From NCBI GenBank assembly GCA_029006015.1, contig JAQXFY010000065.1:1-36679 (forward strand): a stretch of 36,679 nucleotides of DNA, read 5' to 3'. The stretch comes from a bacterium (GTDB lineage Bacteria; Bacillota; Clostridia; Christensenellales; SUG1161). Positions 17,368-19,646 of the stretch are shown piece by piece. A program made the position numbers and the translations under genes. The stretch's first letter is position 1, and each line of letters begins with the position of its first letter. Under the pieces are notes generated by a model. The model made no database searches. It saw nothing but the letters and a program-made list of their open reading frames with translations, and was not told the origin of the DNA.

Positions 17368-18402
17368 ATGAAGAAGGTTCGGCTGCTTGCGTTGGTGCTG
17401 ATCATCGCGCTGTTGGCCCCCTTCGCCACTGCCTGCGGCCAGTCCGGCCCGGTGCTGCGCGTCTTTAACTGGGAGGATTATATCGATCCCTCCGTCCTCA
17501 AGGATTTTACAAAGGAAACGGGCATCCAAATCAAGTATATCCGTTTCACCACCAATGAGGATATGTATGCCAAGCTCAAAATGGGCACCACGGAAATGGA
17601 CGTCGCCTTCCCTTCCGATTATATGATCGAGCGCATGGCCAACGAAGATATGCTGGCCACCCTCAACCGGGATAACATTCCCAATTTTGCCAATCTTTCC
17701 GAGTTTGTTCTCAACAAAGGCTTTGATCCGGACAATGCCTATTCCATTCCCTACATGTGGGGCACGCTGGGCATCCTGTATGATAAAACCCAGGTGCAAA
17801 AACCCGTGACCAGCTGGGACATTCTGTGGGACAAGGATTATTCCGGCAAGATTTTAATGATCGATTCCGTGCGCGATGCCGTGGGGATCGCCCTCATTAT
17901 GGAAGGCTATTCCCTGAACGATTTTTCCGATGAAGCCATGGAAAAGGCCAAGCAGCGCCTGATAAGCCAAAAGCCCCTGCTGCAGGCCTACTCGCTGGAC
18001 AGCGCCAAGGATATCATGCGCCGCGGCGCCGCCGCGATGGCCGTGGTTTATTCCGGCGATGCGGTAACCGCCATGGGTAAAAACGAAAATCTGGCTTATG
18101 CCGTGCCGGAGGAAGGCAGCAACATTTGGTTTGACAACATGGTTGTGCTCAAAAACAGCAAGATGATCCCGGAGGCGGAGCAGTTTATCAACTTCCTCTG
18201 CCGGGAGGATATTGCCAAGCGCAACGCGGAATACATCGGTTATTTCAGCCCCGTAAAGGGCGTGACCGAAGGCCTGGTGGAGGATGGCACCCTGCCGGAC
18301 ATCCTGCCCGCGGAGGATTCCTACGACACGCTGGAGGCCTTCCTGGACCCCGGCGAGGATATCTCCAAGTTTGATCTGCTCTGGACGGAGCTTACCCGCT
18401 AA
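17368..18402 (+). CDS. potD: spermidine/putrescine-type substrate-binding lipoprotein
   Basis: Lipoprotein signal ...LLAPFATACGQ; LRVFNWEDYIDPSVLKDFTKETGIQIKY; IPYMWGTLGILYD; WDILWDKDYSGKILMIDSVRDAVGIAL. Confidence 0.92.
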   Translation: MKKVRLLALVLIIALLAPFATACGQSGPVLRVFNWEDYIDPSVLKDFTKETGIQIKYIRFTTNEDMYAKLKMGTTEMDVAFPSDYMIERMANEDMLATLNRDNIPNFANLSEFVLNKGFDPDNAYSIPYMWGTLGILYDKTQVQKPVTSWDILWDKDYSGKILMIDSVRDAVGIALIMEGYSLNDFSDEAMEKAKQRLISQKPLLQAYSLDSAKDIMRRGAAAMAVVYSGDAVTAMGKNENLAYAVPEEGSNIWFDNMVVLKNSKMIPEAEQFINFLCREDIAKRNAEYIGYFSPVKGVTEGLVEDGTLPDILPAEDSYDTLEAFLDPGEDISKFDLLWTELTR

Positions 18403-18437
18403 GCGCGGCTCTGCCCCTTTCCGTGGGATAGCAAACG

Positions 18438-18467
18438 CCCCCATGCCCGGTGCATGGGGGTATTTTT
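18438..18467 (+). terminator. rho-independent terminator of the pot operon
   Basis: CCCCCATGC-CCGGT-GCATGGGGG followed by TATTTTT. Confidence 0.85.
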
Positions 18468-18597
18468 ATGTCGGCGGATAAAAGCCCCTGGCATGGGGTC
18501 TACAGGCCCACCCACGCCCCTTGCCTGCCGGTATCGCTGTGCTGCCATTACCATACAGCCCGGCCCCAAATCGCCCGCCCACCCCGATGAATGCCCA

Positions 18598-18723
18598 TCA
18601 TGCTCCGGCACGCCCACGGGAGGGATGCTTGAGAAAAGGATTGGCGCCTTTCAAAACCGATACTTGGCAGTCAATATCCTGCTTTGTTTCGTTGGTGGAG
18701 CATCGTGCGTAACCGCATTCCAT
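18598..18723 (-). pseudogene. truncated serine recombinase (resolvase/invertase N-terminus)
   Basis: Minus-strand 41-aa ORF MECGYARCSTNETKQDIDCQVSVLKGANPFLKHPSRGRAGA*. GYARCSTNETKQDID matches the YxRxSTxxxxQxxD catalytic N-terminus. SD AAAGGAGAG lies upstream; the rest of the gene is missing. Confidence 0.65.
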
Positions 18724-18821
18724 AATCTTCTCTCCTTTTGGTGGCGGGGCTGTTGCCCCGCCTTGTCTGCTTGGGGAGCGGACAGGGGAAATGATTTTCC
18801 ACCACCCTTTCCACTATTGGA

Positions 18822-18857
18822 CGAAAAAAGAGGAGAAGGATTGCTCCTTCTCCTCTT
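18822..18857 (-). terminator. rho-independent terminator of the rubrerythrin gene
   Basis: Minus strand AAGAGGAGAAGGA-GCAA-TCCTTCTCCTCTT followed by TTTTCG; 13-bp perfect stem. Confidence 0.85.
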
Positions 18858-18884
18858 GGAAAAGCCTTGTTTCAGGCGCTTTTC

Positions 18885-19424
18885 TTACTTGAAGTACCGA
18901 TTCAGCAGGCCTTCGAAAGCGCGGCCGTGGCGGGCTTCGTCCTTGGCCATCTCGTGAACGGTATCATGGATGGCATCATAGTTACGGGCCTTGGCCAGCT
19001 TGGCCAGTTCCTTCTTGCCCGCGCAGGCGCCGTTCTCGGCATCAACGCGCATCTCCAGGTTCTTCTTGGTGGAAGCGGTCACAACTTCGCCCAGCAGCTC
19101 GGCAAACTTGGCGGCATGCTCAGCTTCTTCCCAGGCAGCCTTCTCCCAGTACAGGCCAATCTCGGGATAGCCTTCACGGTGGGCCACACGGGCCATCGCC
19201 AGATACATACCAACCTCGGTGCACTCGCCATTGAAATTGGCGCGCAGCTCCGCCAGGATATCGTCTTCCACGCCCTGCGCCACGCCGACAACATGCTCAT
19301 CCGCCCAGGCGCGCTCGCCGGATTGCTCGTTAAATTTGGCCTGGGGAGCGCCGCACACCGGGCACTTATCAGGGGCAGCCCCTTCAGCAACATAACCGCA
19401 TACGCTGCAAACAAATTTCTTCAT
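18885..19424 (-). CDS. reverse-type rubrerythrin (N-terminal rubredoxin, C-terminal diiron ferritin-like domain)
   Basis: [27 protein letters not shown] rubredoxin domain first, then [11 protein letters not shown] and [18 protein letters not shown]. Confidence 0.92.
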
Positions 19425-19612: not shown

Positions 19613-19646
19613 ATAGCAAAAGCCCCCATGCATTGCACAGGGGCTT
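19613..19646 (-). terminator. probable terminator after rpsI
   Basis: Minus strand AAGCCCC...GGGGCTT stem (19620-19626/19640-19646) followed by TTTGCTAT. Confidence 0.6.

Follow-up and report, generated by a model that had tools for sequence, protein, structure and literature searches.

In gamma-delta resolvase, the residues of the active site are Ser10, Arg8, Arg45, Arg68 and Arg71. The closest relatives of the locus described here are small serine recombinases whose sequence starts with GYARCSTNExKQDI. Truncated recombinase or transposase pseudogenes occur in bacterial intergenic regions, and dead gene fragments in general are common and ordinary in bacterial genomes.

The window, the whole stretch of 36,679 nucleotides of contig JAQXFY010000065.1 that was analysed, contains a short minus strand reading frame that resembles both. 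Like the small recombinases, it has the Y-A-R-C-S-T segment with the catalytic serine, the KQDI sequence and the same placement of the Shine-Dalgarno sequence and ATG. However, it retains only about 26 of their approximately 195-205 codons, a tyrosine and an arginine at nearly invariant positions are both replaced by cysteine, and the SxxRxxR motif, the dimer helix and the HTH are absent from an ORF of 41 residues. With truncated recombinase and transposase pseudogenes it shares the form of a 5' fragment that lacks the rest of the gene and occupies a short interval flanked by housekeeping genes, and the only difference is its particular place. The fragment itself was confirmed, and it is almost certainly a dead, ordinary 5' pseudogene.

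The reading frame and its surroundings

Direct translation of the minus strand from 18723 to 18598 gave MECGYARCSTNETKQDIDCQVSVLKGANPFLKHPSRGRAGA*, exactly the peptide that an earlier note on this DNA had reported. The Shine-Dalgarno-like sequence also claimed there was read as AAAAGGAGAGAAG just 5' of the ATG (18724-18736, minus strand), and the gap, given as roughly 480 bp, was measured as 482 bp from the potD stop at 18402 on the plus strand to the end of the rubrerythrin gene at 18885 on the minus strand, the two genes being convergent. Translation, homology and profile searches identified the segment 18646-18723 (minus strand) as what survives of a small serine recombinase gene, namely about 26 codons of its 5' end. 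The remaining segment, 18598-18645, encodes a non-homologous tail, about NPFLKHPSRGRAGA, followed by TGA.

Intrinsic terminator-like sites were found 3' of both neighboring genes, at 18437-18461 on the plus strand for potD and at 18828-18857 on the minus strand for rubrerythrin. The latter is strong and separates the fragment from rubrerythrin transcription. Since each gene has its own terminator-like site, neither transcript obviously includes the 41-residue ORF, and the region yielded no sigma-70-like promoter. A 167-residue ORF on the plus strand (18454-18957) overlaps the 3' end of the rubrerythrin gene in antisense and was taken to be spurious.

Homology of the amino end

The 41 residues were searched against an order-wide sample of 396 genomes and a class-wide sample of 391 genomes, partly overlapping and roughly 790 in total. 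Matches with 57-73% identity were obtained in 15 other genomes, all limited to residues 1-28 of the query (22-28 residues). The matching proteins are small serine recombinases of Clostridia, and small serine recombinases are also found on viral contigs. The matched frames in the other Clostridia are nearly all open, approximately 160-280 residues long and in most cases about 200 (195-205); one (locus L033) runs into assembly Ns. The best NCBIfam model for an intact relative was the master DNA invertase Mpi family (NF009949), with a score far below the cut-off.

In the comparison with PF00239 (Resolvase) that had been proposed as a check, residues 4-25 aligned to profile positions 3-24, including the Y-x-R-x-S catalytic serine motif, which appears in the ORF as GYARCST. 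The alignment was thus obtained, but the score of 12.1 bits (E 0.22) did not reach the cut-off of 23.3 bits because the match is so short, about 22 residues, or 22 of the 145 profile positions. Subfamily profiles built from 4 intact recombinase proteins and from 20 sequences were decisive. With the first, the fragment was the sole match at E<=10 in the whole 2.0-Mb genome of the organism (E 1.1e-5). With the second, it scored 28.9 bits in the window (E 5.5e-8), where the next match had 4.6 bits; among ten shuffled windows the highest score was 6.2 bits. Given the genome-wide E value and the separation from the shuffled controls, the sequence comparison indicates that the common ancestry of the amino end with the small GYARCSTN recombinases is real and beyond chance, as the earlier assignment to resolvase/invertase-type recombinases had proposed. 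A tblastn search of plasmids gave no match, the same search of phages gave only weak matches (best E 0.4), no match was found in the PDB and a literature search on the fragment returned no relevant paper.

The fragment keeps GYARCST, KQDI and the following Q. The residue before GYAR is cysteine, although it is tyrosine in 23 of 25 homologues and otherwise F or W. The arginine of the DRQ/RQ motif, present in 23 of the 25, is likewise cysteine, so that the DCQ noticed earlier was seen again in the alignment. From what is known of the family, the fragment should hold the equivalents of Arg8 and Ser10 but no later catalytic arginine, dimer helix or HTH, and for want of these parts its 41-residue product is presumably unable to recombine DNA.

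Loss of the remainder

Where the family continues RQ(I/V)RELKAAGAEE(V/I)IFEYEHGD, the fragment reads CQVSVLKGA|NPFLKHPSRGRAGA*. Both the alignment and the profile match end at approximately residue 26-28, within the 25-30 residues estimated previously. Relative to an intact gene, about 170 codons are missing. These would require approximately 510 bp and only about 240 bp lie between codon 28 or so and the potD stop, so the missing part cannot fit before the end of potD. The potD gene itself does not appear to be cut, since its relatives align to within two residues of the carboxyl end. The 20-sequence profile gave no significant match to the remainder in any downstream frame of the minus strand, and neither the SxxRxxR arginines nor a full catalytic domain was detected in those frames. 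A profile search of the organism's own genome did not detect the carboxyl part elsewhere in the assembly. This assembly is a draft of 203 contigs, 88% complete, and had the gene been broken by an inversion instead of a deletion, the missing part could lie in sequence that was not assembled.

The possibility was considered that a second patch of the recombinase survives in another frame. The sequence GPVDPMPGAFIR (about 18512-18474, minus strand) aligned with G-x-IDPMSQAFIQ of intact recombinases. However, 15 of 1000 dinucleotide shuffles scored equally well (p about 0.015 with a small query set), the patch overlaps a G/C-rich half-hairpin, and it was discounted because its score weakened to E 0.08-0.11 with the larger, 20-sequence profile.

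With its homologous amino end, abrupt break, absent remainder and two lost residues of near invariance, the fragment is, with high probability, a pseudogene relic of the 5' end of a small resolvase/invertase-like recombinase gene truncated by deletion or rearrangement. A gene for a recombinase of about 200 residues would formerly have lain on the minus strand at this place, or would have been brought here by rearrangement. The ribosome-binding site and the first 26 or so codons would have survived, while deletion or rearrangement would have taken away everything after them, fusing codon 26-28 or thereabouts to unrelated intergenic DNA before the potD terminator. The product is presumably non-functional, and the intact gene may have belonged to a mobile element. 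What counts against a relic is that the start codon, the good Shine-Dalgarno sequence and the reading frame are all intact, which is not required of a purely neutral remnant, though 41 codons are short. As a record, the relic shows that the lineage of the host once lost a recombinase gene, and it matters for little beyond annotation.

A possible mobile element or rearranged segment

Intact relatives of the fragment are present on IMG/VR viral contigs, which makes a mobile origin plausible. The truncated end could then mark where a decayed integrated element, or an inverted segment, stops, its recombinase gene having been split by recombination. The segment carrying the fragment and the rubrerythrin gene lies between two copies of a 19-nt repeat in direct orientation (18428-18446 and 19613-19631, 95%), as it might between the ends of an element. 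However, both copies belong to hairpins of potD and rpsI that resemble terminators, and the genome has further occurrences of their GCCCCCATGC stem. They were rejected as element ends, and among the notable flanking repeats, all of them terminator stems, no convincing end was found near the fragment. Moreover, inspection of the window ORFs by eye revealed no other element genes, the neighborhood consisting of ribosomal-protein, ECF-transporter and potABCD genes, and no tRNA was found nearby. Together with the failure to find the carboxyl half elsewhere, these results make an element boundary unlikely. Of the earlier interpretation, the recombinase relic has good support, whereas the scar of an entire mobile element is only a possibility.

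The AGCAAA lead together with the GCCCCCATGC core is shared exactly only by 18428-18446 and 19613-19631.

The convergent potD-rubrerythrin arrangement was looked for in other genomes and occurred in none of the rubrerythrin and potD loci sampled. In the other rubrerythrin loci of the order, potD was not found near rubrerythrin, and the 80 best loci of GTDB r220 lack the convergent arrangement. In locus L070, a potD of 42% identity precedes rubrerythrin, both genes lying on one strand, which is a different arrangement. No rubrerythrin or recombinase gene was found within approximately 1.5 kb in the 29 best potD loci.

One viral contig (L134, around 1971) carries a recombinase copy whose amino-terminal frame is interrupted shortly after GYARCSTNEK. 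The frame is 23 residues long and the match resumes at residue 15 in another frame; either a frameshifted copy or a sequencing error would account for it.

A possible functional small protein

The same intact translation signals, and the well conserved first 26 codons, would also suit a small protein with a function of its own, built on the recombinase amino end, which might for instance act on a recombinase as its dominant-negative partner. An unusual hairpin lies just 5' of the Shine-Dalgarno sequence, a perfect 8-bp G+C stem, GGCGGGGC-AACA-GCCCCGCC (18743-18762, minus strand), and the surrounding 101 nt fold unusually well (z = -3.7). It occurs once in the genome and has no T-run, it had no match near a gathering score in Rfam, and it was not seen 5' of the intact recombinase relatives inspected. 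No short version of the protein was present in the roughly 790 sampled genomes, where the matching frames are long, apart from the one entering Ns. Furthermore, the genome has no intact recombinase of the same subfamily to serve as a partner, its sole PF00239 match being a 552-residue frame on another contig. With the loss of two nearly invariant residues and no promoter-like site, a functional small protein is very improbable, and the cryptic small ORF offered as an alternative in the earlier note finds no support, given the short form missing from those genomes and the same substitutions. A translated micro-protein under selection, derived from the recombinase amino end and controlled by the upstream hairpin, is slighter still as a prospect.

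A chance ORF that only resembles a recombinase at its start, as the short match below the Pfam cut-off and the negative plasmid and PDB searches might suggest, is hardly credible against the genome-wide E value, the shuffled controls and a match that starts from the ATG, behind a proper Shine-Dalgarno sequence, as in intact homologues. A remnant of 26 codons was recognisable by the subfamily profile even though it scored under the Pfam cut-off.
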